Below, one piece after another: positions 2,724 through 28,660 of a DNA stretch of 64,000 bases (the stretch's first letter is position 1; the number at the start of each line of letters is the position of its first letter). A program made the position numbers and the translations under genes. This DNA comes from Nocardioides sp. T2.26MG-1 (GTDB lineage Bacteria > Actinomycetota > Actinomycetes > Propionibacteriales > Nocardioidaceae): the NCBI RefSeq assembly GCF_950101795.1, contig NZ_CATNLZ010000035.1, positions 1 to 64,000 on the forward strand. Reading direction: 5' to 3'. Under the pieces are notes generated by a model. It did no database searches, was not told the origin of the DNA, and saw nothing but the letters and a program-made list of their open reading frames with translations.

Positions 2724-4241
2724 ATGTCCCACGCACGAGTGCTCATCGACCCACGCTCCGCGGTGGGCCCCGTCGACCGCAGGCTGTTCGGCTCGTTCGT
2801 CGAGCACCTCGGCCGGTGCGTCTACGACGGGCTCTACGAGCCCGGTCACCCGACGGCCGACGAGCACGGCTTCCGGGCCGACGTGGTCGAGCTGGTCCGG
2901 GAGCTCGGCGTCAGCACGGTCCGCTACCCGGGCGGCAACTTCGTGTCGGGCTACCGCTGGGAGGACGGCGTCGGGCCGAAGGACGCGCGGCCGCGCCGCC
3001 GCGACCTGGCCTGGCACTCCACCGAGACCAACGAGGTGGGCCTGCACGAGTTCGCATCCTGGATCGAGACCGTCGGTGCCGAGCTGATGCTCGCGGTCAA
3101 CCTCGGCACGCGCGGGGTCGCCGAGGCGCTCGACCTCCTCGAGTACACCAACCTCGGCGCCGGCAGCGCGCTCTCGGACCTGCGGGTCGCGCACGGGCGC
3201 ACCGACCCGTTCGACGTACGCATGTGGTGCCTGGGCAACGAGATGGACGGGCCGTGGCAGCTCGGCCACTGCTCGGCCGAGGAGTACGGCCGGATCGCGT
3301 CCCGCACCGCGAAGGCAATGCGCCAGCTCGACCCGCGCCTCGAGCTCGTCGTGTGCGGCTCCTCCGGGTCGCAGATGCCGACGTTCGGCGAGTGGGAGCG
3401 GACCGTGCTCCTGCACACCTACGACGACGTCGACTACATCTCCTGCCACGCCTACTACGAGCAGCGCGAGGGCGACCTCGGGAGCTTCCTCGCGTCCGCC
3501 GTCGACATGGACCGGTTCATCGAGGACGTCGTGGCCACGGCCGACCACGTCCGGGCCGTCACGCGCAGCGACAAGACGATCGCGATCTCGTTCGACGAGT
3601 GGAACGTGTGGTACCAGACCCGGTTCGAGAACGAGGAGAAGATCCAGGGTCTCGACAACTGGCCGGTGGCGCCCCGGCTGCTCGAGAACGTCTACACCGC
3701 GGCAGACGCCGTCGTCGTCGGCAGCCTGCTGATCTCACTGCTCAACCACGCCGACCGGGTCACCAGCGCCTCGCTCGCGCAGCTGGTCAACGTGATCGCC
3801 CCGATCATGACCGAGCCGGGGGGACCCGCCTGGCGGCAGACGACCTTCCACCCGTTCGCGCTGACCTCGAGGTGGGCCCGCGGCCAGGCGCTGCGCGCCC
3901 AGGTCGCGTGCGACGACTACGACTGCGCGGCCTACGGCACGGTGCCGAGCCTCGACGCGGCCGCGTCGTACGACGAGGCCACCGGCCAGGCGGCGGTGTT
4001 CCTGGTGAACCGCTCGCAGGACGCGGCCACCGAGGTCGAGGTCGAGATGCCCGGTGTGGGCACCGGGGACGTCGCGGCCTGGACGGTCGGTGGGGCGGAC
4101 CCGCAGCTGACCAACACGGCCCAGGCGCCGGACCGGGTGCGCCCGGTGCCCCTCCGCGCCGAGCGGCGTGACGACGGTGCGCTCACGCTCACCCTCCCGC
4201 CCGTCTCGTGGACGGTCGTCGCCGTCGGCACACCGGCCTGA
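2724..4241 (+). CDS. abfA: Alpha-L-arabinofuranosidase, GH51
   Basis: 505 residues, normal for intracellular GH51 enzymes that release terminal arabinofuranose from arabinan, arabinoxylan or arabino-oligosaccharides. Seen in order: FGSFVEHLGRCVYDGLYEP, TVRYPGGNFVSGYRWEDG, the acid/base glutamate in CLGNEMDGPWQ, and the nucleophile glutamate in ISFDEWNVWYQ. The C-terminal 150 residues form the beta-sandwich. There is no signal peptide, so it acts in the cytoplasm on imported oligosaccharides. The start is supported by GAGGGAG just upstream. It stands alone, with no sugar transporter beside it. Confidence 0.95.
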   Translation: MSHARVLIDPRSAVGPVDRRLFGSFVEHLGRCVYDGLYEPGHPTADEHGFRADVVELVRELGVSTVRYPGGNFVSGYRWEDGVGPKDARPRRRDLAWHSTETNEVGLHEFASWIETVGAELMLAVNLGTRGVAEALDLLEYTNLGAGSALSDLRVAHGRTDPFDVRMWCLGNEMDGPWQLGHCSAEEYGRIASRTAKAMRQLDPRLELVVCGSSGSQMPTFGEWERTVLLHTYDDVDYISCHAYYEQREGDLGSFLASAVDMDRFIEDVVATADHVRAVTRSDKTIAISFDEWNVWYQTRFENEEKIQGLDNWPVAPRLLENVYTAADAVVVGSLLISLLNHADRVTSASLAQLVNVIAPIMTEPGGPAWRQTTFHPFALTSRWARGQALRAQVACDDYDCAAYGTVPSLDAAASYDEATGQAAVFLVNRSQDAATEVEVEMPGVGTGDVAAWTVGGADPQLTNTAQAPDRVRPVPLRAERRDDGALTLTLPPVSWTVVAVGTPA

Positions 4242-4242
4242 G

Positions 4243-4485
4243 CTACCGCGAGGACCGGTTGCCGTCCTCCGGTGGTGTGTGCCGCGGCAGCGCGGCCGGC
4301 CCGGCGGTGCCCTCGTCGGGCTCGCCGCTCTCGCTCGTCGGGTAGCCGGCGGTCGCGTCCTCGGGTGAGATCGGCTCGGGGCCGTCCCCCATCCCGGACA
4401 CCTCCGAGACCTCCCCGGAGTCGGCGCCGGAGTCGGCGTCGGGGGTCGTGGTCTCGGGCTCGGCAGGGGGCTCGTCGGGGCTCAT
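4243..4485 (-). CDS. Small acidic hypothetical protein
   Basis: 80 residues, very rich in Glu, Asp, Pro, Ser and Thr and with no hydrophobic core; likely disordered. The C-terminal part contains ISPEDATAGYPTSESGEPDE, a style seen in small conserved actinobacterial proteins of unknown role. Codon third positions are G/C-rich as in real genes here. It is divergent from the F420/NADP-type oxidoreductase gene and ends against the arabinofuranosidase gene. No function can be assigned, and a chance open frame is not fully excluded. Confidence 0.55.
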   Translation of the reverse strand: MSPDEPPAEPETTTPDADSGADSGEVSEVSGMGDGPEPISPEDATAGYPTSESGEPDEGTAGPAALPRHTPPEDGNRSSR

Positions 4486-4579
4486 GGCCACCCGGTATCC
4501 CGTCCTGCCCGATCGCACGCCCGGCGACGGCAGGGCGGGAGTAGGTTGCGAGACAGGCACCACGGGAAGGGGCATCCCC

Positions 4580-5251
4580 ATGTTGATCGCCGTCCTCGGC
4601 ACGGGCAGTGTCGGTCGCGCGCTCGCGGGCCGTCTCGACGAGCTCGGCCACACCGTCACCGTCGGCACCCGCGACCCCGAGGCCACCCGCACCCGCACCG
4701 ACGACGACGGGCGCGCGACGTACGCCGAGTGGGCCGGCGCGCACCCGCACATCGGGCTGGAGCGGTTCGCGGCCGCCGCCGCGGGCGCGGAGCTGGTGGT
4801 CAACGCGACCGGCGGCGACGTGAGCCTCGACGTGCTGACCCTGGCCGGCGCGGACAACCTCGCGGGGAAGGTGCTGCTCGACGTCGCCAACCCGCTCGAC
4901 CACTCGCACGGCTTCCCGCCGCGGCTGTTCGTCAAGGACGCCGACTCGCTCGCCGAGATGATCCAGCGCGCCTTCCCCGCGGCGCGGGTGGTGAAGTCGC
5001 TCAACACCATGAACGCCGACGTGATGGTCCGCCCGGCCGAGCTGCCCGGCCCGACCTCGGTGTTCGTCTCGGGCGACGACGCCGAGGCCAAGCAGCTGGT
5101 GACCGGCCTGCTCGTGGCGATGGGCCACACCGACGTCATCGACCTCGGCGGGCTGGCGACCGCGCGGGGCGCGGAGATGGTCCTGCCGCTGTGGATCAGC
5201 CTCCGGCTGCACCTGGGGACCAATGCGTTCAACTTCCACGTGGTCCGCTGA
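4580..5251 (+). CDS. NADPH-dependent F420 reductase-like oxidoreductase
   Basis: 223 residues. The N-terminal Rossmann motif MLIAVLGTGSVGRALAGRL (GxGxxG) and the following TVGTRDPEAT, where T-R-D favours NADP, fit the F420-dependent NADP reductase family. VVNATGG, LLDVANPLD, VVKSLNTMNADVM and the C-terminal WISLRLHLG complete the fold. Members move hydride between NADP and F420 or flavin-like cofactors, but several branches have other substrates, so the exact reaction is open. The ATG at 4580 directly precedes the Rossmann strand and has GGAAGGGG upstream. Confidence 0.8.
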   Translation: MLIAVLGTGSVGRALAGRLDELGHTVTVGTRDPEATRTRTDDDGRATYAEWAGAHPHIGLERFAAAAAGAELVVNATGGDVSLDVLTLAGADNLAGKVLLDVANPLDHSHGFPPRLFVKDADSLAEMIQRAFPAARVVKSLNTMNADVMVRPAELPGPTSVFVSGDDAEAKQLVTGLLVAMGHTDVIDLGGLATARGAEMVLPLWISLRLHLGTNAFNFHVVR

Positions 5252-5279
5252 TCCCGACCCGCGCAGAGGTTAACAACCG

Positions 5280-5296
5280 CTAACCGGACCGGTTAG
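5280..5296. promoter_or_regulatory. 17-bp palindrome at the acyl-CoA dehydrogenase promoter
   Basis: CTAACCGG-A-CCGGTTAG is a perfect 8-bp inverted repeat around one base. Its right end overlaps TAGGGT (5294-5299), a -10-like hexamer ending 7 nt before the ATG at 5307. A dimeric repressor bound here would block the promoter. TetR-type lipid regulators often use such sites; which protein binds is unknown. Confidence 0.6.
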
Positions 5297-5306
5297 GGTG
5301 ACCGCC

Positions 5307-6503
5307 ATGAGCGAGTCGACCTACGAGCTGTCCCGCGAGCACGAGGAGTTCCGCCGTACCGTCCGCGAGTTCGCGGAGGCCGAGATCGGCCCGCACGCGG
5401 CGCGGTGGGACCGCGAGCACCACTTCCCGGTCGACGTCGTGCGCAAGATGGGCGCGCTCGGCCTGTTCGGGCTCACCGCCCCCGAGGAGTACGGCGGCGC
5501 CGGCGAGGACGGTGACTTCACCAGCCTGTGTGTGGCGATCGAGGAGGTCGGCCGCGTCGACCAGTCGCTGGGCATCACGCTCGAGGCCGCGGTGGGTCTG
5601 GGCATCAACCCGATCCTCACCTACGGCACCGACGAGCAGCGCCGGACCTGGCTCCCCGACCTGGTGTCGGGGGACCGGCTCGCCGGCTTCGGCCTGACCG
5701 AGCCCGGTGCCGGCTCCGACGCGGGCGCCACCAAGACCCGCGCCGTCCTCGAGAACGGCGAGTGGGTGGTCAACGGCGCGAAGCAGTTCATCACCAACTC
5801 CGGCTCCGACCTGACCAGCGTGGTCACGGTGACCGCCCGCACCGGCACCCGTGAGAACGGCTCGGCGGAGATCAGCGCGATCCTCGTGCCGAGCGGCACC
5901 CCCGGCTTCACGGCCGAGAAGGCCTACGACAAGCTCGGCTGGCACGCCTCCGACACCCACCCGCTGAGCCTCCAGGACGTGCGCGTCCCCGAGGACCACC
6001 TGCTCGGCGAGCGTGGGCGCGGCTACGCCCAGTTCCTCGCGACCCTCGACGACGGCCGGGTCGCGATCGCGGCACTGGCGGTCGGGTGCATCCAGGCGTG
6101 CCTGGACCTGAGCCTGGAGTACGCCGGTGACCGGCAGACGTTCGGTGGGCCGATCGGCCGCAAGCAGGGCGTGGCGTTCCAGATCGCCGATCTCGAGGTG
6201 ATGCTGCACGCGAGCCGCCTGCTGACCTACCGCGCCGCCGCGATGAAGGACAGCCAGCGCGGCGGCGGCGGGGCGTCGACGAAGGACTTCAAGCAGGCGG
6301 CGGCGGTCGCCAAGCTCTACGCCACCGAGTCGGCCGTCACCGCCACCCGGGTCGCCACCCAGGTCTTCGGCGGCTACGGCTTCATGGAGGAGTACCCGGT
6401 GGCGCGGTTCTACCGCGACGCCAAGGTGCTCGAGATCGGCGAGGGCACCTCCGAGGTCCAGCGGATGCTGATCGCCCGCGGCCTCGGCCTGCCGGTGGAG
6501 TGA
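5307..6503 (+). CDS. Acyl-CoA dehydrogenase
   Basis: 398 residues from the ATG at 5307, the normal length for this FAD flavoenzyme, which introduces the 2,3-double bond into acyl-CoA in beta-oxidation or branched-chain amino acid catabolism. Seen are GFGLTEPGAGSDAG (flavin and substrate motif), FITNSG, GRKQGVAFQIADLEVM, and near the end GGYGFMEEYPVARFYRDAK then EIGEGTSEVQ, which carries the catalytic-base glutamate position. A GTG at 5298 is in frame, but the ATG lies exactly 7 nt after TAGGGT and is preferred (leaderless). It is monocistronic, with its own palindromic operator and a downstream hairpin. The substrate chain cannot be read from sequence. Confidence 0.92.
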   Translation: MSESTYELSREHEEFRRTVREFAEAEIGPHAARWDREHHFPVDVVRKMGALGLFGLTAPEEYGGAGEDGDFTSLCVAIEEVGRVDQSLGITLEAAVGLGINPILTYGTDEQRRTWLPDLVSGDRLAGFGLTEPGAGSDAGATKTRAVLENGEWVVNGAKQFITNSGSDLTSVVTVTARTGTRENGSAEISAILVPSGTPGFTAEKAYDKLGWHASDTHPLSLQDVRVPEDHLLGERGRGYAQFLATLDDGRVAIAALAVGCIQACLDLSLEYAGDRQTFGGPIGRKQGVAFQIADLEVMLHASRLLTYRAAAMKDSQRGGGGASTKDFKQAAAVAKLYATESAVTATRVATQVFGGYGFMEEYPVARFYRDAKVLEIGEGTSEVQRMLIARGLGLPVE

Positions 6504-6505
6504 CG

Positions 6506-6538
6506 CACCCCGCGGGGGAGCGTCAGACATGCGGGGTG
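6506..6538 (+). terminator. Hairpin after acyl-CoA dehydrogenase
   Basis: CACCCCGC (6506-6513) pairs perfectly with GCGGGGTG (6531-6538) around a 17-nt loop, starting 3 nt after the stop codon. There is no U tract, as is common in actinobacteria. It separates this gene from the GtrA gene, whose promoter-like TAGCCT is at 6545. Confidence 0.55.
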
Positions 6539-6556
6539 ATTGGCTAGCCTGAGCGC

Positions 6557-7150
6557 ATGGGTAGCCGGTGGCAACGCGTCTTCACCGAGGCGTACCGGTT
6601 CCTCGCGGTGGGCGGCATCGCGACGATCGTCGCCTTCGTGATCTTCAACTTCCTGGTGCACGGGTTCAACACCGAGCACCAGGCGCTGCTCGACGGGCAC
6701 CCCTACCTCGGCTACGTCATCGCCAACACCGTCGGCATGGTGATCAGCTTCCGCGGCAGCAAGACCTGGGTGTTCAAGGACCGGCCGCCGCGCTCGGCGG
6801 ACGGCGGTCGTACGGCGTTCATCGCGATCAACCTCGTCACGATGCTGATCCCGATCGCCTGCCTGTGGCTGAGCCGCAACGCCTTCGGGCTCGACGACCC
6901 CTGGTCGGACAACGTGTCGGCCAACATCATCGGGCTGTTCCTCGGCCTGGTGGCGCGCTTCTACCTGTTCCGCACCCTGGTGTTCAAGCGCCCCGTCCAC
7001 CTGCCCGACCTGATGCACAACCCGTTGCAGGTCTTCGAGCTCAGCGAGCTCTCGGAGGGCGGGGTCACCTCGGTCGAGGTCGTCAACGAGGTCCCTGGTC
7101 GGCCCACAGAGCCGTCCAGGAGTGACCCAGCTCGACGACCAGCTCCCTGA
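6557..7150 (+). CDS. GtrA family membrane protein
   Basis: 197 residues with four membrane helices (about 12-32, 50-68, 90-108 and 122-142). The GtrA signatures are FLAVGGIATIVAFVIFNFLV, ANTVGMVISFRGSKTWVF and LGLVARFYLFRTLVFKR. GtrA proteins are small flippase-like membrane proteins thought to move lipid-linked sugars, often polyprenyl-phosphate glucose or arabinose, across the membrane. The tail after helix 4 is long and hydrophilic. TAGCCT lies 6 nt before the ATG, consistent with a leaderless transcript. The 3' end overlaps the convergent maf gene by 68 bp. Confidence 0.88.
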   Translation: MGSRWQRVFTEAYRFLAVGGIATIVAFVIFNFLVHGFNTEHQALLDGHPYLGYVIANTVGMVISFRGSKTWVFKDRPPRSADGGRTAFIAINLVTMLIPIACLWLSRNAFGLDDPWSDNVSANIIGLFLGLVARFYLFRTLVFKRPVHLPDLMHNPLQVFELSELSEGGVTSVEVVNEVPGRPTEPSRSDPARRPAP

Positions 7151-7703
7151 GCAGCGGCAGGCTGACGCCGACCACGTTGTGGTGGTCGCCCTCGATGCCG
7201 GTCACGAACGCCCCGCCGAGCCCGTCGACGGTGAACGCCCCGGCGACGGCCAGCGGCTCGCCGGTGGCGACGTACGCCGTGATCTCCTCGTCGGTCAGCT
7301 CCGCGAAGTGGACCGTCGTCGCGGCGGTCGCCGCCGCGACCCGTCCCGAGGCGCTGTCGGTGAGGCAGTGCCCGGTGAGCAGGACGCCGGTGCGGCCGCG
7401 CATGCTCCGCCACCGCTCGACGGCCTCGTCGGCGCCGGCGGGCTTGCCCAGTGCCGCGCCGTCGAGCTCGAGCACGGAGTCGCAGCCCAGTACCAGTGCG
7501 CCGGCGGGCAGGTCGTCACGCGCGGCCACCGCCGCGGACTTCAGCTCGGCCAGCTGGAGGGCGAGCTCGGCCGGGGGCAGCCCGTCGAGCTGGGACTCGT
7601 CGACGCCAGAGACGATCACGACCGGCTCGACGCCCGCGCTGCGCAGCGTGGCGAGGCGGGCGGGGGAGGCGGAGGCGAGGACCAGGGGCGCGGGGGAGGT
7701 CAC
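7083..7703 (-). CDS. maf: Maf-type nucleoside triphosphate pyrophosphatase
   Basis: 206 residues. Maf proteins hydrolyse nucleoside triphosphates, including modified ones such as m5UTP, to the monophosphate plus pyrophosphate. Signatures are the N-terminal LVLASASPARLATLRSAGV and the aspartate motif LGCDSVLELDG followed by GKP. The GTG start overlaps the stop of the upstream tetR gene by GTGA, so the two are coupled. The 3' end runs 68 bp into the end of the opposing GtrA gene. Core maf domain residues appear intact. Confidence 0.92.
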   Translation of the reverse strand: MTSPAPLVLASASPARLATLRSAGVEPVVIVSGVDESQLDGLPPAELALQLAELKSAAVAARDDLPAGALVLGCDSVLELDGAALGKPAGADEAVERWRSMRGRTGVLLTGHCLTDSASGRVAAATAATTVHFAELTDEEITAYVATGEPLAVAGAFTVDGLGGAFVTGIEGDHHNVVGVSLPLLRELVVELGHSWTALWADQGPR

Positions 7704-8302
7704 GCGGGGGATTCAAGCATCTCGAGGGCGTCACCGAACGCACAGGTCGTCAGCGCGGTGAGCGGGTCGCCCGGCGCCAGGTGCTCGGGCGCGCGCATCG
7801 AGAGCATCACGTTGAGCAGCATCCCGTAGGCGACGAAGTCGCGGGCGCGCTCGTCATCGCAGCCGGTGCGCTTGATGGTCGTGAACACCTCGCCCATGCA
7901 CCGGCGCGCGGCCGAGGCGATCTCGTCGACGCCGCCGGCGGAGAAGCCGTGCATCATCACCTGCAGGAAGTCGCGGTCGGCGAGCAGCTCGCTGTAGGCC
8001 GCGCCCATCCGCGCCCAGTCGTCCTCGCTCTCGGGGTCGAAGGGCCCCGCGTCGAGCACGTCCTCGAACGCGGTGCGGATCCGCAGCACCGAGCGCTCGA
8101 ACACCTCGAGGAACAGCTCGAGCTTGGTGCCGAAGATGCGCACGACGTACGGCTGGGAGACGCCGGCCTCCCGAGCGATCGCGTCGGTGCTGGTCCCGGC
8201 GTACCCGGACCTGGCGAACGCGCGGGTCGCGGCGGCGAGGACCAGCTCGCGCCGGTCCTCGGCGCTCATCCGGGTGCGGGCCGTGGTCGCGGGAGAGATC
8301 AT
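7700..8302 (-). CDS. TetR/AcrR family regulator of the adjacent MFS pump
   Basis: 200 residues. The helix-turn-helix is seen in LAAATRAFARSGYAGTSTDA and REAGVSQPYVVRIFGTKLEL. The C-terminal domain is the variable ligand-binding part. It is divergent from an MFS drug-transporter gene with only 85 bp between, which holds a long inverted repeat overlapping a promoter. This is the classical layout of a local repressor released by a pump substrate. It is also translationally coupled to maf, which is probably incidental to its role. Confidence 0.9.
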   Translation of the reverse strand: MISPATTARTRMSAEDRRELVLAAATRAFARSGYAGTSTDAIAREAGVSQPYVVRIFGTKLELFLEVFERSVLRIRTAFEDVLDAGPFDPESEDDWARMGAAYSELLADRDFLQVMMHGFSAGGVDEIASAARRCMGEVFTTIKRTGCDDERARDFVAYGMLLNVMLSMRAPEHLAPGDPLTALTTCAFGDALEMLESPA

Positions 8303-21228: not shown

Positions 21229-23829
21229 TCAGGAGGCCGTTCCTCCCGGGGGGTCCTCGAGTCGCTCGAGCACCCGGTCCTCGAGGCCGGTCGGGTCGAC
21301 CCGGTCCTTGGTGATGAACTCGGTCCGGCCCAGCGTCAGCAGGGGACGGTCGGCCGGCTCCACCTCGGCTGCGCTGTAGACGATGAGGTCGACGGCGGCG
21401 GTGCGCGGATCGCGGCGCAGCTCGCTCACCACGGCGTACCCGCTGCCGCTCGAGGGCCCGAGATCGAGGTCGAGCAGGACCACCCGGGGGTGCACCTCGC
21501 GCGCCAGGCGGACGGCGTCGCCGGCCCCCACGGCGCGGACGACGGGCACGGCGTGCCCGGTCAGCAGGGTGGTGAGAACGTCGGCCACCTCGTCGTCGTC
21601 CGTGACGAGGAGCACGGTGCCCCGCCCGGCCCGACCGCCGGCGGGCCGGTGGCGCGATGTGGCGTGGTGGCCGGGACCCCTCCGGCTCGCCGCCGGGAGG
21701 GTGAACGTGACGGTCGTGCCGGAGCCCGGCGCGCTCTCGGCCCAGATCCGGCCGCCGTGGCCCTCCACGATCCCGCGGCAGATCGCCAGACCGAGACCGG
21801 TGCCGCCCTTCTGACGCGCGTCGGAGGAGTCGACCTGGTCGAACCGCTGGAAGACCGACTCCACCTGGTCCGCGGGGATGCCTCGTCCCTGGTCGCGGAC
21901 CCGGAAGACGACCTGGCCGTCCTCGGCGGCCGCGTCGAGGACGACGGTCTGCCCCTCGGTGGAGAACGTGATCGCGTTGCTGAGCAGGTTGGTGAGCGTC
22001 TGCACGATGCGGTCGGCGTCGACCAGCACCCGGCCGGCGCTCGGCGCCACCCGGAGTCGGACTCCGGTCGAGAGGGCCTGGCCGGCCATCTCGGTCACCG
22101 CGCGGGACAGCAGCTCCTCGGCGGCGATCGACGCGATGTCCATCGGCTGATGGCCCGCCTCGATCCGCTCGAGGTCCAAGAAGTCGTTGATCAGGCGGGT
22201 CAGCCGTTCGCTGCTCTCCAGGGCGATCCTGGTCATCGAGCGGGCCCGGGGTGAGAGCTCGCCGAGCACGCCGCTCGCCAGCAGTCCCAGGGAGCCGCGG
22301 ATCGAGGTGAGCGGGGTGCGCAGCTCGTGGCTGACCACGGAGATGAACTCGTTCTTCATCCGATCGACGTCGCGCCGCTCGGTGACGTCGCGGAACACGA
22401 CCACGGCGCCGCGCACGACCTGGTCGTCGGGGGGACCCTCGAGCTGTGGGCTCGCGGTGATCTCGACCGGGAAGCTCGAGCCGTCACACCGGACGTACAC
22501 GTCCTCCTCCGCGAACGTGTTGATACCGGAGCCGATGGCCTCGGCGATGTAGCAGCCCTCGTAGGGGTAGGCGAGGCCGTCCTCCGCAGGGGCGTGGAAG
22601 ACGTCGTGCGCCGAGCGGCCGAGAAGGTCCTCCGCGGCGTACCCGAGAGCGTCCGCGCCGGACGGGTTGACGAACGTGATCAGGCCCGCGGCGTCCACGC
22701 CGTAGATGCCGTCGCCCACGGACGTGAGCAGCACCTCGGTCTGCCGGGCCAGCCGCCGCAGGTCGGCGGTCTGCTCGCTCACCCGCTGCTCCAGCCCGCG
22801 CCGCAGCGCGTTGTTGTCCCGGGTCAGCACGATCTGGCGGCCGGCGGCGGCGATCGCGACCAGCATCCACAGCACCGCGGTGGAGGGGCTCAGTCGCTCC
22901 TGGCTGCCGGAGACCACCTGGATGCCGGCGGCGACCAGCAGCACGAGGTAGACGAACGCGGTGTCGCGCACGTCGGTGGCGGTCCCCGAGCCGTGCGGGA
23001 CATCGACCTCCGTGCTGGGGTACCACGCCGCGAGGGCGAGCAGTGCGTAGCCGACCATCCAGCCGAGGTCGAGCGGCGTCCCGAACTCGAAGTCCTCCTG
23101 CGCGACGAGCACCGCGAAGGGGAGGTCGGCGAGGGCGTAGGCGAGGAAGCCCAGCGCGAGCAGCGCCAGCGCCTGACGGTCCGAGCCGCGGGCCCGCAGG
23201 AGGAGCAGGATGCCGACCACGACCAGCACCACGTCGAGCACCGGGATCAGCAGCGTCGTGAGCTGGGAGGCGAGCCCGCCCCTGGTCTGCTCGAGCAGCT
23301 CGTCGTAGACCAGCGTGGAGGCGATGATCAGCACGGCGCCGCCGACCACCAGCCCGTCGAGGCTGATCACGACCAGGTCGACGCCGCGGCGGCGCACGCT
23401 CGGGAAACCGAGCACGCCGGCGATGCACAGGCCGAGAGCGGCGGTGATGGCGAGGTCGCTGAAGGCGCTCGGCGAGGTGACCGGGTCGGACCCGGTCGCG
23501 GTGGCCCACACGTTGCCGGTGATCGCGACCAGCGCGCCCGTCATGATCAGCAGCCAGGACCGTCGCCGCCGGCCGACGGTCTGCCGGGCGCGCAGCCAGC
23601 ACGAGACCGCGAGGAAGGCCCCGCTGGCGACCAGGCCGAGCCCGCTCGTGAGCTCCCGCGCGTCCTGACCGACCAGTGCGGGCTGGAGCAGCGCGGCGAG
23701 CACGGCGAGCACCGCCACGATGAGCGGCAGCACGGCGAGGAACTGCCGTTGCTGCCGCTCGAGCGATTGCTGCATGTGGGCCCCGAGAGATTCGTCGAAA
23801 CCGGGATCGGTCCCGACCCCGGCCCTCAT
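21229..23829 (-). CDS. Hybrid sensor histidine kinase: membrane sensor, PAS, kinase and receiver
   Basis: 866 residues. About nine membrane helices (31-340) are followed by a short coiled coil, then a PAS domain (about 365-490, VGDGIYGVDAAGLITFVNPS). The HisKA motif is VSHELRTPLTSIRGSLGLL with the phospho-histidine. The ATPase domain shows VQTLTNLLSNAITFS, RVRDQGRGIPAD and GGTGLGLAICRGIV. The C-terminal receiver (about 745-860) has acidic LVTDDDEV, Asp in VVLLDLDLG and Lys in FITKDRV. It starts 6 bp after the stop of the NarL-type regulator, so it is the last gene of the D-Ala-D-X run. An alternative ATG at 23775 would drop 18 residues. The signal and output are unknown; the receiver may pass phosphate on or dampen the kinase. 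Confidence 0.9.
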   Translation of the reverse strand: MRAGVGTDPGFDESLGAHMQQSLERQQRQFLAVLPLIVAVLAVLAALLQPALVGQDARELTSGLGLVASGAFLAVSCWLRARQTVGRRRRSWLLIMTGALVAITGNVWATATGSDPVTSPSAFSDLAITAALGLCIAGVLGFPSVRRRGVDLVVISLDGLVVGGAVLIIASTLVYDELLEQTRGGLASQLTTLLIPVLDVVLVVVGILLLLRARGSDRQALALLALGFLAYALADLPFAVLVAQEDFEFGTPLDLGWMVGYALLALAAWYPSTEVDVPHGSGTATDVRDTAFVYLVLLVAAGIQVVSGSQERLSPSTAVLWMLVAIAAAGRQIVLTRDNNALRRGLEQRVSEQTADLRRLARQTEVLLTSVGDGIYGVDAAGLITFVNPSGADALGYAAEDLLGRSAHDVFHAPAEDGLAYPYEGCYIAEAIGSGINTFAEEDVYVRCDGSSFPVEITASPQLEGPPDDQVVRGAVVVFRDVTERRDVDRMKNEFISVVSHELRTPLTSIRGSLGLLASGVLGELSPRARSMTRIALESSERLTRLINDFLDLERIEAGHQPMDIASIAAEELLSRAVTEMAGQALSTGVRLRVAPSAGRVLVDADRIVQTLTNLLSNAITFSTEGQTVVLDAAAEDGQVVFRVRDQGRGIPADQVESVFQRFDQVDSSDARQKGGTGLGLAICRGIVEGHGGRIWAESAPGSGTTVTFTLPAASRRGPGHHATSRHRPAGGRAGRGTVLLVTDDDEVADVLTTLLTGHAVPVVRAVGAGDAVRLAREVHPRVVLLDLDLGPSSGSGYAVVSELRRDPRTAAVDLIVYSAAEVEPADRPLLTLGRTEFITKDRVDPTGLEDRVLERLEDPPGGTAS

Positions 23830-23835
23830 TGTCGC

Positions 23836-24561
23836 CTAGGAGACGGCTCCCGGTTCGGTCCCCGGGTCCGCGGCCGGCCCGACCAGCCCGTGCTCGTGGG
23901 CGAACACCACGATCTGCACGCGGTCGCGCAGGCCGAGCTTGCGCAGGATCGCGCCCACGTGCGTCTTGACCGTCGACTCGCTGGCGAACACCTGGCCGGC
24001 GATCTCGGTGTTCGACAGGCCGTGGGCGACCGCGGCGAAGACCTCGCGCTCCTTGTCGGTCAGGCCCAGGTACGCCGGCGGCGTGGGCGTTCGGCTGCGG
24101 AACTGCCCGTCGAGCAGCGTCGAGAGGTCCTGGGGCGCGAGCACCGCGTTGCCGGCGTACACCGTGCGGATCGCGTCGGCCAGCATCACTGGGGTGGTGC
24201 CCTTGAGCAGGAAGCCGCTCGCGCCGTAGCGGATCGCGGTCGCGGCCCGGTCGTCGAGGTTGAAGGTCGTGAGCACGACCACGCGCACCGGCCGATCGCG
24301 TCGCGCGGCGCGGTCGGGCAGGAAGATCTGGCGGGTCGCCTCGACCCCGTCCATCTCCGGCATCCGGATGTCCATCAGCACCACGTCTGGCTCGAGCTCC
24401 TCGACGAGTGCCACGGCCTCCAGCCCGTCGGCCGCGGCACCGACGACCTCCATGCCGTCCTGGGCGTCGACGATCACCCGCACGCCCTCGCGGAACAGCT
24501 CCTGATCGTCGACGAGCAGCACCCGGATCGCGGGTGCCGACTCCGGCTCCGGTGCGGTCAC
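23836..24561 (-). CDS. NarL/FixJ-type response regulator
   Basis: 241 residues. The receiver (about 10-130) shows RVLLVDDQELFREGVR, the phospho-acceptor Asp in VVLMDIRMPEMDG, Thr in VVLTTFN and Lys in FLLKGTTP. The LuxR-type helix-turn-helix (about 165-230) shows LTDKEREVFAAVAHGLSNTE and SESTVKTHVGAILRKLGL. The GTG start overlaps the stop of the kinase gene by GTGA, so the pair is a cognate two-component system. It sits in the same run as the VanX-like, alanine racemase and ligase genes and is the natural candidate to control them. Known VanR proteins are OmpR type, so this differs. Confidence 0.93.
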   Translation of the reverse strand: MTAPEPESAPAIRVLLVDDQELFREGVRVIVDAQDGMEVVGAAADGLEAVALVEELEPDVVLMDIRMPEMDGVEATRQIFLPDRAARRDRPVRVVVLTTFNLDDRAATAIRYGASGFLLKGTTPVMLADAIRTVYAGNAVLAPQDLSTLLDGQFRSRTPTPPAYLGLTDKEREVFAAVAHGLSNTEIAGQVFASESTVKTHVGAILRKLGLRDRVQIVVFAHEHGLVGPAADPGTEPGAVS

Positions 24562-25784
24562 CGGCTGCGCACCGGCAGCCACGCGGTGGCGGTGAACGTC
24601 GGCGGGTCGCTGCGTCGGCGTACGTCGAGACGGCCGCCGACCGACTCGAGCCGGCGCCGCATCCCCTCCAGGCCCTGCCCCCCCGTCGTGGGCACCGCCA
24701 CCACGAGGGGCTGGGTCTCCTCGGTCCCCTGCTCGACCACGTTCTGCACCTCGATCCTCAGCTCTCCCTCCCAGTGTCGCTCCACCTGCACCGGCTCGCC
24801 GCGCCGCCCGTGCTTGAGTGCGTTGGTGAGCATCTCCTGCAGCACCCGGAACGCCACGGTGGCCAGCTCGGGCGGCAGCGGCTGCGGCGTCCCGAACTCG
24901 GTGGACCGCACCTCGTGGCCGCTGGCCCGCACCCCGGCGACCAGGCTGTCGAGGTCGGTGCTGCCGGTACGCGGTCCGGCGGCGCCGCTGGTGGAGGCCA
25001 GCACCTGCCGGATGTCGTCGAGGGAGCTGCGTGCCGTGGTCGCGATGTTGTCCATCGTCTGCTTGAGGACCTCGGTGTCGGCGTCCTTGCGGTACTGCGC
25101 GGACTCCGCCTGGGCGAGGATGACCGCGAGCGAGTGGCCGACGACGTCGTGCACGTCCCGGGCCAGCTTGGCCTGCTCGTCGCGGAGCCGGGCGATCTCC
25201 TCGGCCTGGTCGCGCTCGGCCTCGGCGACCACCTGGGACGCCCGGGACTGCTGGGCCCGGGTGGAGAACCGCAGCGCGAGACCGGCCAGCCAGGGCACCC
25301 CGAGCACCGACATGCCGAGCACCGCCGCGGTCACCTGCCACCGGTCGCTCCACCGGGCGGTCTGCTGGACCAGCGACTCGAACCCGGCCGTCGCGAGCGC
25401 GGAGTAGAACACGCTGGGGTCGATCCAGAGCACGGTGATCACGGCGGCCACCGGGATCGAGAACGCGCTCGCCACGACCGTCGCCGCGCTGCCCCAGCGG
25501 GCGGTGCCGAACGCGACGATGCCGATCGCCAGCTCGATCATCAGCAGCTGGGTGCCGGTCATCACCTGCAGCACGCAGATCGCCCACACCAGTCCGAGTG
25601 CCAGCGCGGGCAGCCAGCGGGCGAGCGCTGCGGCGGTGGCGATCCCGACGACGAGGAGCGCGAGCGCCGGGCGGGGGTCGTCGACGTAGTAGGGGTGGTC
25701 GACCCCGAGCACCTCGTACAGGCCGACGATCAGGACGGCCAGGCCGACCGCCGCGTCGGGCGCCCAGGTGCGCCAGCCGGTCAT
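24558..25784 (-). CDS. DesK-type sensor histidine kinase
   Basis: 408 residues. Five or six N-terminal membrane helices (about 10-170) have only short outside loops, so the signal is probably in the membrane or close to it. A coiled coil then leads to HisKA_3: LARDVHDVVGHSLAVILAQA with the phospho-histidine. The ATPase part shows FRVLQEMLTNALKHG and GGQGLEGMRRRLESVGG. The ATG at 25784 has GGGAG upstream. The GTGA overlap with the response regulator marks them as partners. The gene starts 59 bp after the ligase gene, same strand, without an obvious terminator between. Confidence 0.93.
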   Translation of the reverse strand: MTGWRTWAPDAAVGLAVLIVGLYEVLGVDHPYYVDDPRPALALLVVGIATAAALARWLPALALGLVWAICVLQVMTGTQLLMIELAIGIVAFGTARWGSAATVVASAFSIPVAAVITVLWIDPSVFYSALATAGFESLVQQTARWSDRWQVTAAVLGMSVLGVPWLAGLALRFSTRAQQSRASQVVAEAERDQAEEIARLRDEQAKLARDVHDVVGHSLAVILAQAESAQYRKDADTEVLKQTMDNIATTARSSLDDIRQVLASTSGAAGPRTGSTDLDSLVAGVRASGHEVRSTEFGTPQPLPPELATVAFRVLQEMLTNALKHGRRGEPVQVERHWEGELRIEVQNVVEQGTEETQPLVVAVPTTGGQGLEGMRRRLESVGGRLDVRRRSDPPTFTATAWLPVRSR

Positions 25785-25843
25785 GCGTGCTCCCTGTGAG
25801 GTCGGTGGCTGTCGCGGCAAGCGAACCACACGGGCCGCGCTGC

Positions 25844-26782
25844 TCACCGGTGGGCGCCACGCACCAGCTCGTCGAGCAGGTCCGCGTAGGCGAGGCCCGC
25901 CGCCGCGAACATCCGCGGCACCTGCGAGTGCTCGGTCATGCCGGGCACGGTGTTGACCTCGTTGAGCACCGGGCCGTCCTCGGTGAGGAAGAAGTCGACC
26001 CGCGCGACCCCGGCGCAGCCGAGGGCGTCGTACGCCGCCACCGCGGCGTCGGCGAGCGCCTTCGCCTCGACGTCCGCGAGCTCGGCCGGGACCCGCAGGT
26101 CGGCGTGGCCGCCGTACTTGGCGTCGTAGTCGAACAGCCCGTCGCCCACGATCTCGAGGGCGGGCGAGGCGACGACGGTCCCGTCCGCGCGGCGGAGCAC
26201 GGCGACGTCGATCTCCCGTCCGGCCACGACGTCCTCGACGAGCGCGCGGTCGTCGAGCGCTAGTGCCGCCTCGAGGGCGCTGCGCAGGTGGCCGGGCTCG
26301 CGGACCAGGCTCACGCCCCGGCTGGAGCCCGCGGCCACCGGCTTGACCACCACGGGGTGGGACCAGACCTCCTCGGCGGCGGTCGCCGTGGTGACCAGGC
26401 GACCGGGCGCGGTCGCGATGCCGAGCGCCGCGGCGACCAGCTTGGTGGCCCACTTGTCCATCGCGAGCGCGCCCGCGCCGACCCCGGACCCGACGTAGGG
26501 GAGGCCGGCGAGCTCGCACAATGCGGCGAGTGCGCCGTCCTCCCCGCGGGGACCGTGCACCATCGGGAACACCACGTCGCAGGTGGCCAGCAGCCGGGCG
26601 GCGCCGGACAGGCCGACCGGCAGCCCCTCGTCGTCGCGCCAGGTGCCGTCGGGACCGATCGTGAGCGCGATCACCTCGTAGGCGCGGGCGTCCAGCCCGG
26701 CCGCCACCGACGCGGCGGAGGCCAGGGACACCTCGTGCTCGCAGTTCCGGCCGCCGCCGATCACCGCGACCCTGGTCCTCAC
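25844..26782 (-). CDS. D-alanine--D-X ligase (Ddl/Van ligase family)
   Basis: 312 residues. This ATP-grasp ligase joins D-Ala to a second D-amino or hydroxy acid for peptidoglycan. Seen are VAVIGGGRNCEHEVSLASA with Glu15, MVHGPRGEDGALAAL, VVVKPVAAGSSRGVSLV, FDYDAKYGG (the K-Y of the omega loop as in Ddl), and VLNEVNTVPGMTEHSQVPRM. In the last motif, E. coli DdlB has Ser-Leu and VanA-type ligases have Ser-Arg at the residues that contact the second substrate; here it is Ser286-Gln287. Substrate choice is therefore open between D-Ala and another acid. The GTG start overlaps the racemase stop (GTGA). It may be the housekeeping Ddl or a specialised second one; a window this size cannot tell. Confidence 0.88.
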   Translation of the reverse strand: MRTRVAVIGGGRNCEHEVSLASAASVAAGLDARAYEVIALTIGPDGTWRDDEGLPVGLSGAARLLATCDVVFPMVHGPRGEDGALAALCELAGLPYVGSGVGAGALAMDKWATKLVAAALGIATAPGRLVTTATAAEEVWSHPVVVKPVAAGSSRGVSLVREPGHLRSALEAALALDDRALVEDVVAGREIDVAVLRRADGTVVASPALEIVGDGLFDYDAKYGGHADLRVPAELADVEAKALADAAVAAYDALGCAGVARVDFFLTEDGPVLNEVNTVPGMTEHSQVPRMFAAAGLAYADLLDELVRGAHR

Positions 26783-27927
26783 GACAGGCTCCGCAGGTGC
26801 GTCGGCCGGCGCACGGTCCGCGAGACCCGGGCGCCGATGCCGGTGACGATCTCGTGCTCGATGGTGCCGGCCCACGCCGCCCACTCCGCGACGGTGGGCT
26901 CGCCGGCGTCACCCGGGCCGAAGACCGTCACGGTCTCCCCGAGGTCGACCGCGCGCTCGCCGAGGTCGACGACGGCCTGGTCCATCGAGATCCGGCCGAC
27001 GACCGGCCGGCGGCGGCCGCGGACCAGCACCTCCGCGCGGCCCGCGGTGATGCGGGGCAGCCCGTCGGCGTAGCCCAGGGGCACCAGCCCGAGGTGCGTC
27101 GCCGCGGGCGTCCGGTAGGCATGGCCGTACCCGACCGGCGTGCCGGCGCGGACGCGGCGTACCTGCACGACGGGGGCGGTGAGCGTCATCGCCGGCCGCA
27201 GCCGGGTCGTCTGCGAGGGGTCGATGCCGACCAGACCGGCCCCCACCCGGCTCATCGTGTGGTGGCTGCGCGGGTCGGTCAGGGTCGCCGAGGTGGCCGC
27301 GAGGTGCCGGTGCGCGGGCCGGAGCCCGGCCGCGCGCGCGGTTTCGAGCGCCCACGCGAAGCGGGTCCGCGCGAGCGCGTTGCAGTCGTCGGCCGGGTCG
27401 TCGGCGCAGCCGAGGTGGCCCATCACCCCGACCACCTCGACCTCGCCGCGCTGCTCGGCCCGGCGCGCGGACCGGCACAGCTGGGCCCAGGTGTCCGGAG
27501 CCGCACCGTCGCGGGCCATGCCGGCGTCGACGTGGAGGTGCACCCGCGCACGGCGGCCGGCGGAGGTGACGGCCGCCAGGTGCGCCAGGCTCGGTACGGC
27601 GACGTCGACGCCCTCGCGGACGGCCCGGGCGAAGTCCGCGTCCACCGGGTTGAGCCAACTGAGCAGCGGCGCGTCCAGCCCGGTCGCACGGAGAGCGAAC
27701 GCCTCCTCGAGGCTGGTGACGCCGAGCCAGGTGGCGCCGTTCGCGAGCGCCGTCCGTGCCACGTCGGCGGCGCCGTGGCCGAACCCGTCGGCCTTGACCA
27801 CGGCCATCAGCTCCCCGGTCGCCCGGCCGGTCAGCAGCCGGGTGTTGTGGGCGATCGCCGCGAGGTCGACGTCGAGCCGTGCGCCGGAGCCGGTGCCGGG
27901 GCGGGCGGCGGCGGCCAGGCCGGTCAT
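26779..27927 (-). CDS. alr: Alanine racemase (PLP-dependent; VanT-like position)
   Basis: 382 residues. Fold type III racemase. The PLP lysine is Lys45 in MAVVKADGFGHGA, and the C-terminal domain carries VGYGHAYRTP with the second catalytic tyrosine and GRISMDQAVVDLG. The enzyme makes D-Ala, or possibly D-Ser, for the ligase that follows. There is no membrane domain, unlike VanT serine racemases. The ATG overlaps the stop of the VanX-like gene (ATGA), and the stop overlaps the ligase start (GTGA), so three D-amino-acid genes are made together. Whether it is the only alanine racemase of the genome is unknown. Confidence 0.92.
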   Translation of the reverse strand: MTGLAAAARPGTGSGARLDVDLAAIAHNTRLLTGRATGELMAVVKADGFGHGAADVARTALANGATWLGVTSLEEAFALRATGLDAPLLSWLNPVDADFARAVREGVDVAVPSLAHLAAVTSAGRRARVHLHVDAGMARDGAAPDTWAQLCRSARRAEQRGEVEVVGVMGHLGCADDPADDCNALARTRFAWALETARAAGLRPAHRHLAATSATLTDPRSHHTMSRVGAGLVGIDPSQTTRLRPAMTLTAPVVQVRRVRAGTPVGYGHAYRTPAATHLGLVPLGYADGLPRITAGRAEVLVRGRRRPVVGRISMDQAVVDLGERAVDLGETVTVFGPGDAGEPTVAEWAAWAGTIEHEIVTGIGARVSRTVRRPTHLRSLS

Positions 27928-28547
27928 GCCGCGACCTCCGCGGCCAGCGGGCCGTAGAGCGCGTGCCCGCTGCCGGTCATCAGGGCCCAGTAGCGGTCGC
28001 CGAAGGTCCAGTGCCACCACTCGGTCGGATAGTTGACGAGCCCCTGCGCGGTCAGCACGCCGGCGAGCAGGTCGCGGTGCGCGCGGGCATCGGCGCCGAT
28101 CCCATCGGCCGCGAAGTAGCAGCGCCCGTCGCTCTCCTCCGGCGTCGCGTCGATCGCCGTGCCGAGGTCCAGCTGGTCACCGCAGACGTCGACCAGCGTC
28201 AGGTCGACGGCCGCCCCCGCCACGTGCGGCGCCACGTCCACCGGGCTGACGAAGCGGCTGGTCAGCACCTCCAGCTCGGCGGCGTCGGCGTGCGGGTGGT
28301 GGGCACGCACCTCGGCGGCGTACGACGCGATGATCGCGCGCTGCACGTCCAGCGGGCGGTAGCCCTCGATCACCCGCAGCCGGATGCCCCGCGGCAGGGC
28401 CGCGTCCGCCGCCCGGAGCCGGTCGGCGAGGCTCGAGCGCACCAGCGCACCGAAGGGGGAGAGGTCGCCCTCGAGGAGGACCAGCGGCTCGCCGGTCTCC
28501 GCGACCGGCACGGCACGGACCCGCGGGTCCGACAGCAGGATCGTCAT
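27924..28547 (-). CDS. D-Ala-D-Ala dipeptidase, VanX/DdpX-like (M15D)
   Basis: 207 residues, VanX-sized. Zinc ligands are His108 and Asp115 (PHVAGAAVDLTLVD, spacing 7 as in VanX) and His179 in TEWWHW, with the catalytic-base Glu176 in the same motif. Arg64 in VIEGYRPLD matches the conserved active-site arginine. The residue before His108 is Pro, where VanX has Ser-Ser. There is no signal peptide, so it acts in the cytoplasm and would remove D-Ala-D-Ala made by a normal ligase, or recycle wall peptides. It is the first gene of the run, with a single clear upstream gap (28548-28660). Confidence 0.88.
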   Translation of the reverse strand: MTILLSDPRVRAVPVAETGEPLVLLEGDLSPFGALVRSSLADRLRAADAALPRGIRLRVIEGYRPLDVQRAIIASYAAEVRAHHPHADAAELEVLTSRFVSPVDVAPHVAGAAVDLTLVDVCGDQLDLGTAIDATPEESDGRCYFAADGIGADARAHRDLLAGVLTAQGLVNYPTEWWHWTFGDRYWALMTGSGHALYGPLAAEVAA

Positions 28548-28660
28548 GGTGTCGACGCTAGGAAGTCCTGGGGTCCCCTCGCCTCCACCTCAGGTGCCGG
28601 GGTGCTGGCCCCTGGTACCGCGCTCGGTGGTCGTTCGGTGGAGCGGCAGCACCGAGCCGA
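28548..28660 (-). promoter_or_regulatory. Probable promoter region of the dipeptidase-racemase-ligase run
   Basis: 113 bp between the YrdB gene and the VanX-like gene, the only gap before the run. It contains an imperfect inverted repeat, GGTGCCGGGG (about 28594) facing CCCCTGGTACC (about 28610), which could bind a regulator. No convincing -35/-10 pair was found by eye. Confidence 0.35.

Follow-up and report, generated by a model that had tools for sequence, protein, structure and literature searches.

A candidate Van-type target-remodelling regulon with an atypical racemase and ligase in Nocardioides

The stretch analysed here, called the window, comprises positions 1 to 64,000 of contig NZ_CATNLZ010000035.1 of Nocardioides sp. 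T2.26MG-1, whose genome assembly comprises 5.14 Mb in 37 contigs. It carries a run of five genes (Table 1) for a VanX-like D,D-dipeptidase, a racemase, a ligase of the D-alanine (D-Ala)-D-X type, a sensor kinase and a response regulator, which an earlier note, made from the sequence alone, had read as following the logic of Van-type vancomycin resistance. The description of the locus in that note is accurate: all five reading frames between 23836 and 28547 are open, Pfam confirms each product, and the coordinates agree with 4-bp overlaps between vanX and the racemase gene (ATGA) and between the racemase and ligase genes (GTGA), followed by a gap of 59 bp before the kinase gene, which itself overlaps the regulator gene by 4 bp (GTGA). 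We placed the regulator start at 24561, the list of open reading frames having a longer frame. With about five N-terminal membrane segments by hydropathy and a HisKA_3 domain in the kinase, and a GerE/LuxR output domain in the regulator, the two-component system is of the DesK/NarL class, as had been stated, rather than an OmpR-type VanR with its VanS, and its kinase matches the NCBIfam LiaS model only weakly (21.6 bits, cut-off 450). There is also no VanH gene in the operon, as claimed, the remaining genome not having been searched for one.

Table 1. Genes and control elements of the operon in the window
Feature	Position	Strand	Details
vanX-like D,D-dipeptidase gene	27924..28547	-	207 aa; PF01427 (Peptidase_M15) 61.5 bits, above cut-off
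Racemase gene, alanine racemase fold	26779..27927	-	382 aa; Pfam Ala_racemase N and C above cut-offs
D-Ala-D-X ligase gene	25844..26782	-	312 aa; Pfam Dala_Dala_lig N and C above cut-offs
DesK-type sensor kinase gene	24558..25784	-	408 aa; HisKA_3 and HATPase_c above cut-offs
NarL/LuxR-type response regulator gene	23836..24561	-	Response_reg and GerE above cut-offs
Operator-like site GGCACCTGAGGTGGAGG, palindrome CACCTnAGGTG	28582..28598	-	first base 51 nt before vanX start
TAGCGT, -10-like hexamer within TTCCTAGCGT	28555..28560	-	7 nt before vanX ATG

A profile search of genome contigs returned at least 454 confirmed VanX relatives, and the counts of loci given below refer to the best 80. Among the matches listed, the closest relatives of the window VanX come from Nocardioides. 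VanX, racemase and ligase stand together in 65 of the 80 loci, and in 45 of them the kinase is conserved beside the enzymes and all five genes are present, across nine families that span Nocardioidaceae to Frankiaceae, Jiangellaceae, Micromonosporaceae and Microbacteriaceae. The five-gene order, for which the earlier note had proposed to search, is thus found far beyond chance. Variants include Promicromonospora, with the ligase on the opposite strand, Kribbella, with racemase, ligase and VanX but without this kinase, and Lentzea and Actinopolyspora, in which the three enzymes are accompanied by an AT3 acyltransferase gene and lack the kinase.

The genome also encodes housekeeping copies of both ddl and alr, a second point on which a search had been suggested; the lack of further copies, which the note would have held against its reading, is thus not what we find. 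It holds one other alanine racemase (C1:99004), two other true Ddl-type ligases (C35:212393, 236 bits and housekeeping-like; C1:885965, 155 bits) and a second VanX-like gene (C1:658432), and housekeeping alr and ddl coexist with the operon in all nine operon genomes of a 61-genome family sample. In one genome (G006), only about 1.3 kb separates a housekeeping-type ddl from the regulator gene of the operon (L125:796-1842 and 3130-7739). The ligase at C1:885965-886579 (L145) is divergent, with YTARY and STVP motifs, and adjoins a PlsC-type acyltransferase gene; second ligases that score like it occur in many Nocardioidaceae.

All three enzymes retain their catalytic residues, as the note had said, but the substrate-site residues of the racemase and the ligase are not of the housekeeping type. 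In VanX, the metal-binding and catalytic residues R71, H116, D123, E181 and H184 are kept in 82 of 82 rows, and the protein matches the VanX structure 1r44 (E 1.2e-9), with no signal peptide or membrane segment seen along its length. It scores 42.8 bits against the NCBIfam VanX equivalog model, for which the cut-off is 320; on the basis of its residues and gene context, it probably works like VanX.

In the racemase, catalytic Lys39, Arg136 and Tyr265' are kept in 66 of 66 operon rows, and His358 aligns with Tyr361 of SlAlr, the S. lavendulae alanine racemase (Alr), and hence with the gate residue Tyr354 of BsAlr. These two tyrosines bind an oxygen of the pyridoxal phosphate (PLP) phosphate group (PMC3485190; papers are cited here by PMC number from excerpts of their text). 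Strict conservation in Alr and a link to specificity have been described for the gate tyrosine, which in VanT is replaced by an asparagine held to be critical for specificity (PMC3485190). Our operon-type set contains 67 racemase rows, of which 64 have a residue at this position, His in 60 and Asn in four. The housekeeping set has 46 rows, six of which are operon copies with His drawn in by the search; all of the remaining 40 rows, which represent 39 genes because L097 and L137 are the same, have Tyr, so the window racemase departs from a housekeeping Alr at this site. Nine genomes of the family sample have both enzymes, one with Tyr and one with His; a tenth genome, G052, also has two racemases, neither of them operon-type. 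At 85% or more in each, the two sets are separated by four columns only: Phe49, which replaces BsAlr Tyr43, Thr212, which replaces Ser204, Gly266, which adjoins catalytic Tyr265', and His/Asn358. Three of the four are contacts of the three PLP phosphate oxygens, since BsAlr Tyr43, Ser204 and Tyr354 each bind one of them (PMC3485190).

The ligase differs from housekeeping enzymes at the site of the second residue. Gln287, at the position of DdlB Leu282, is Gln in all 66 operon-type ligases, those of Promicromonospora and Kribbella included, whereas Met occupies this position in all 30 housekeeping ligases and in E. coli DdlA, and Arg does so in VanA and VanB. A branch with a Shimodaira–Hasegawa-like approximate likelihood ratio support of 99 separates the Gln ligases, together with a racemase–ligase fusion, from the housekeeping ligases, VanA, VanB, DdlA and L085, in what is a quick tree with flagged long branches, built without VanG and without the very long C1 ligase of the genome; the operon ligase thus lies outside the VanA/VanB branch. 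The fusion is a 733-aa protein on a plasmid of Streptomyces sp. SYP-A7193 (L179:3867-6068), in which a His-type racemase is joined to a Gln-type ligase and followed by a GNAT gene; the annotated genes nearby include no VanX. A warning on ligase labels comes from E. coli plasmid p4 (L178), where the PLSDB resistance prediction gives the name vanG, at 39.5% identity, to what is an ordinary ddlA.

The upstream regions of vanX share the sequence GGCACCTSAGGTGGAGG, which contains the palindrome CACCTnAGGTG and to whose family consensus the site in the window has no mismatch. With up to three mismatches, this operator-like site precedes vanX by 49-56 nt, in the sense orientation, in 35 of the 45 kinase-linked loci; a further three have a match in other places (two on the opposite strand and one, in L033, at 121 nt, perhaps from a wrongly placed start), and none of the 45 has it inside vanX. 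Among the 35 loci without a kinase it occurs in three (L023, L065 and L082), in each of which the contig stops short of the kinase position. The site therefore goes with the kinase–regulator pair and is absent otherwise except on cut-off contigs, a co-occurrence that points to CACCTnAGGTG as the predicted binding site of the regulator. Nearer to the start, a TANNNT hexamer is found within the last 14 nt in 19 of 45 five-gene loci versus 5 of 900 sampled stretches; TAGCGT in the window is a possible promoter element, which would give a leaderless transcript. Scans for sigma-70 promoters and terminators gave no match.

With mismatches allowed, the operator matches 66 times in the genome and its reversed pattern 155 times; the site is thus common by chance, and therefore its position matters. 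Two matches are perfect, one before vanX and one before a DUF6518 gene. A further site, with two mismatches, precedes a gene on contig C1 for a 193-aa lipoprotein, with TTCCTAGCGT and the spacing to the start the same as at vanX. This lipoprotein is a VanY (PF02557, 48.8 bits, cut-off 25; D,D-carboxypeptidases of the PDB, E 1.3e-7). The earlier statement that there is no VanY is correct for the window, but it fails at the level of the regulon because the operator precedes this unlinked gene.

A stricter pattern, ACCTSAGGYGGAGG followed after 30-34 nt by ATG, yields 42 sites in 37 of 196 genomes of the genus, versus two for the reversed pattern, and 37 of the 42 stand before this operon. These comprise 33 intact-looking vanX genes (32 read and our own; L255 is cut by a contig end), the operon of L033 and three operons in which vanX has a partial or almost complete deletion (L244, L248 and L270). 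The others precede DUF6518 genes in three genomes and VanY once, and one (L268) has no gene behind it. The DUF6518 genes encode membrane proteins and begin 49-50 nt past the operator (C35:178084-178758, or L200, in our genome; L236; L263). In another genome (G046), the second perfect operator is followed by a gene for an exported 246-aa protein (L209:1551-2288), for which Pfam gave no match up to E 0.1 and the PDB none better than E 1.6; its segments SAHYEGRAID and HRDHVHVD are, we presume, reminiscent of the M15 peptidase motifs HxxxxxxD and HxDHVH.

Across 42 operon genomes (G091, which bears the operon as L267, was left out), a search for VanY gave 38 matches in 29 genomes, of which 35 were read (L301 is among the three unread). 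An operator with up to three mismatches lies 50-51 nt before 16 of the 35, a lipoprotein gene in our genome and in 15 others; random draws reached this level in 9 of 1,100 cases. By type, the site precedes 16 of 17 short lipoproteins with the motif SxHVxG(D/E)A, and none of six SPHV, ten long SEHQ and two SNHG proteins. As a control, 52 family genomes without an operon-type racemase gave 20 VanY matches in 14 genomes, and none of the 19 read has the operator (best, five mismatches; L321 left out), lack of the operon being defined here by lack of an operon-type second racemase match, with the sole racemase unread in about 22 genomes. This distribution of sites at VanY starts ties VanY to the operon by control region and not by position. 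VanZ, which occurs in 41 of the 42 operon genomes in many copies, was considered as a regular regulon member and rejected as too weak: the operator precedes it in G040 (one mismatch) and G068 (two mismatches, GTG start), and among 30 VanZ loci read only that of G068 combines the site with a start codon 48-52 nt away.

The shared operator also bears on a recycling pathway, which the earlier note had raised and in which VanX and the racemase would return D-Ala to L-Ala and the ligase would rebuild the dipeptide when needed. Consistent with such a pathway, VanX relatives lack a racemase and ligase nearby in 13 of the 80 best loci, one of them beside genes for a ROK regulator and a sugar-binding protein, and the Kribbella set of racemase, ligase and VanX has a ROK regulator and a GNAT gene upstream (L058:4360-9651). 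Recycling would, however, leave the ligase without a role, employ a racemase without the alanine gate tyrosine, and place the pathway under a two-component system of the wall-stress class and an operator shared with VanY; weakened on these grounds, it seems to us an improbable account of the operon. In Nonomuraea, a stand-alone VanX directly follows a ROK-family regulator (L080:7810-9633), and the ROK regulators there and in Kribbella hint at wall recycling for other VanX relatives.

An AT3 acyltransferase gene (313-430 aa; PF01757, 92.6-110.8 bits in five tested) directly follows the ligase in 31 of the 65 three-enzyme loci, and in L033 lies beyond the regulator on the opposite strand. None is present in the window, and of the two AT3 genes elsewhere in the genome neither adjoins any of the listed operator matches. 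The presence of AT3 (31 of 64 rows; L023, L065 and L082 left out) requires 13 changes on the ligase tree and is thus patchy. The note's remark that the racemase has no membrane domain holds for this protein, which stands alone and is not fused to AT3 as in VanT, but such a domain has not simply been lost from the family. In VanT, an AT3 domain and a serine racemase form a single protein; the AT3 role there is described as not considered so far, with resistance mutations falling in AT3 (PMC12423673). Mutations in vanT were found in resistant C. difficile lines, and resistance was not reproduced with these mutations (PMC11326576). We rejected the free AT3 gene as a close VanT relative because the full-length NCBIfam vanT-CELN model gave no match at E values up to 10, whereas models for SucT or MdoC did score. 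On the other side of the operon, 6 nt past the regulator gene, begins a gene for a hybrid histidine kinase with PAS and receiver domains (21229-23829, minus strand), a near relative of which occupies this place only in L013 among the best 80 VanX loci.

From the gene content, conserved order, residue differences and distribution of operator sites, we infer that the operon and the unlinked vanY probably form an inducible Van-type target-remodelling regulon. The DesK-class membrane kinase would sense wall stress, with glycopeptides as inducers suggested by the gene set, and phosphorylate the NarL-class regulator, which would bind CACCTnAGGTG centred about 44 nt before start codons and switch on the operon, in the order vanX, racemase, ligase, AT3 where present, kinase and regulator, together with the distant VanY lipoprotein gene. 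VanX would destroy D-Ala-D-Ala in the cell and VanY would trim the last D-Ala outside, while the gate-altered racemase would make not D-Ala but another D-amino acid, D-serine (D-Ser) being the likeliest, for the ligase, altered at its second-residue site, to couple to D-Ala. Lipid II would then end in D-Ala-D-X, which glycopeptides would bind poorly. A racemase in place of VanH argues for an amino acid rather than lactate as X, and the Asn found in four operon rows and in VanT suggests D-Ser, a tentative assignment to which we give slightly less than an even chance. At the level of sequence only, VanX and VanY supply the D,D-dipeptidase and D,D-carboxypeptidase of D-Ala-D-Ser systems. The Van-type logic proposed in the earlier note is thus partly supported, because of the substrate-site residues, the AT3 gene in relatives, a cytoplasmic-looking VanX and the operator-linked VanY, although its account of the gene set was incomplete.

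Several observations weigh against this interpretation, the main ones being that the ligase keeps a conserved tyrosine and that three genomes no longer have an intact vanX. Tyr216 is kept in 66 of 66 operon ligases and Ser150 in 65 of 66, residues that have been tied to ligases making only D-Ala-D-Ala (PMC7691350). The ligase passes two NCBIfam D-Ala-D-Ala ligase cut-offs (293.6 versus 262 and 281.4 versus 245.65 bits) and falls far short of those for VanG (232.7 versus 495) and D-Ser ligase (233.0 versus 520). Likewise, the racemase has His and not the Asn of VanT, passes the alanine racemase cut-off (264.1 versus 168 bits) and lies far below that of vanT-G (203.7 versus 460). The two retained ligase residues and the NCBIfam names would suit a wall-stress regulon that supplies extra D-Ala-D-Ala metabolism with D-Ala-only enzymes, leaving the terminus unchanged and remodelling cross-linking. 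We give this account little probability, since it does not explain why the lineage shows little or no variation at Gln287 and His358, residues that the housekeeping copies lack, and since a ligase making only D-Ala-D-Ala beside VanX would presumably run a futile cycle.

The second main objection is that 3 of the 37 exact-site genomes (L244, L248 and L270) have lost almost all of vanX or an internal part of it, yet retain the promoter/operator and the racemase; in L244 the racemase is fused in frame to the first VanX residues. This is what protection against D-cycloserine, or a similar D-Ala analogue, would allow, the operon then providing a drug-insensitive racemase and ligase that are induced when D-Ala supply fails. 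Such protection would account for the joint duplication of both drug targets with altered active sites and for the Streptomyces plasmid fusion without VanX nearby, and it deserves respect because Alr Y364D, a resistance mutation in Mycobacterium (PMC7691350), falls at the very site that is His or Asn here, Tyr364 of MtAlr corresponding to BsAlr Tyr354. It would nevertheless assign no role to AT3, nor to VanX and the VanY behind the operator, two enzymes that would aggravate a shortage of D-Ala-D-Ala, and we consider its probability to be small. The presence of vanX in 45 of 45 kinase-linked loci is not an independent argument in this respect, since the loci were found through VanX.

The VanY data also count in part against the remodelling regulon. 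At the threshold used, 13 of the 42 operon genomes have no VanY, 18 VanY proteins of other types and one of the short type lack the site in operon genomes, and the split by type was made after the data had been seen. A bolder version of the remodelling regulon, in which the terminus is neither D-Ala-D-Lac nor D-Ala-D-Ser and represents a third Van chemistry native to many non-producing actinobacteria, seems unlikely to us; it would be defined as a whole by racemase Phe49, Thr212, Gly266 and His358 and ligase Gln287 and Phe217, and carried by a two-part regulon of the operon and the unlinked vanY with, at times, a vanZ, DUF6518 or AT3 gene.

Among known systems, the vanG cluster of Enterococcus faecalis and C. 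difficile (vanY, vanW, vanG, vanXY, vanT and vanURS; PMC4405338) resembles the set in content, sharing a ligase, a D,D-dipeptidase, VanY, two-component control, a racemase without the alanine gate tyrosine and, in many relatives, an AT3-type membrane gene. It differs in that VanX and VanY are separate here rather than a VanXY, with VanY unlinked but under the same operator, in that AT3 is a separate gene or absent, the gate is mostly His rather than Asn, the regulators are not of the OmpR class, and scores lie far below the VanG, VanT and VanX cut-offs. The vanHAX type (VanA/VanB, D-Ala-D-Lac) also combines VanX with an alternative ligase that has a polar second-residue site, and has VanY and VanZ accessories, but here a racemase replaces VanH, and the ligase, off the VanA/VanB branch, keeps the Tyr216 and Lys215 that are absent from VanA and VanB. 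In actinobacteria, the pdx operon of Micromonosporales comprises a PALP Ser/Thr dehydratase, Ddl, VanX and VanRS, for which D-Ala-D-Ser-like remodelling has been proposed (PMC8698665); it shares Ddl, VanX and a two-component system with our set, which lacks a PALP enzyme and has DesK/NarL instead of OmpR-type regulators. A Micromonosporaceae ligase–VanX pair without racemase (L085) has Met at the Gln site and groups with housekeeping ligases. Sets of racemase, Ddl, VanY and VanRS in Allonocardiopsis, Murinocardiopsis and some Geodermatophilales, for which D-Ala-D-Ser has been raised (PMC8698665), likewise place racemase, Ddl and VanY under one regulator, but theirs is VanRS-type, with VanY linked and no VanX in the description. 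The pairing of a HisKA_3 kinase with a NarL-class regulator is that of the wall-stress systems VraSR and LiaSR; our set differs in that a single operon encodes both the two-component system and the remodelling enzymes. In S. aureus, van expression and the response to wall stress are both modulated by VraTSR (PMC3893269).

Our full-text search of open-licence papers found no description of this gene set. A survey of actinobacteria that searched with vanSRHAX and vanRSY, the S. coelicolor and balhimycin van genes and VanRS reported the pdx operon and the rare racemase–Ddl–VanY–VanRS sets (PMC8698665), and its main text has no match for Nocardioid-, NarL or VanT. Surveys of this kind would probably miss the set because its regulators are different and its enzymes divergent.

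If our interpretation is correct, a Van-type remodelling regulon is common in Nocardioides, with the exact site in 37 of 196 genomes, and reaches other families: the wall genes of a soil bacterium appear to swap the building block that vancomycin binds, with differently tuned enzymes and another type of sensor. The set offers a natural comparison for the joint change of racemase and ligase specificity, and the free AT3 gene linked to both enzymes may help to explain the AT3 half of VanT, called 'unrecognised' in PMC12423673. It would also constitute one more environmental reservoir of vancomycin-resistance logic.

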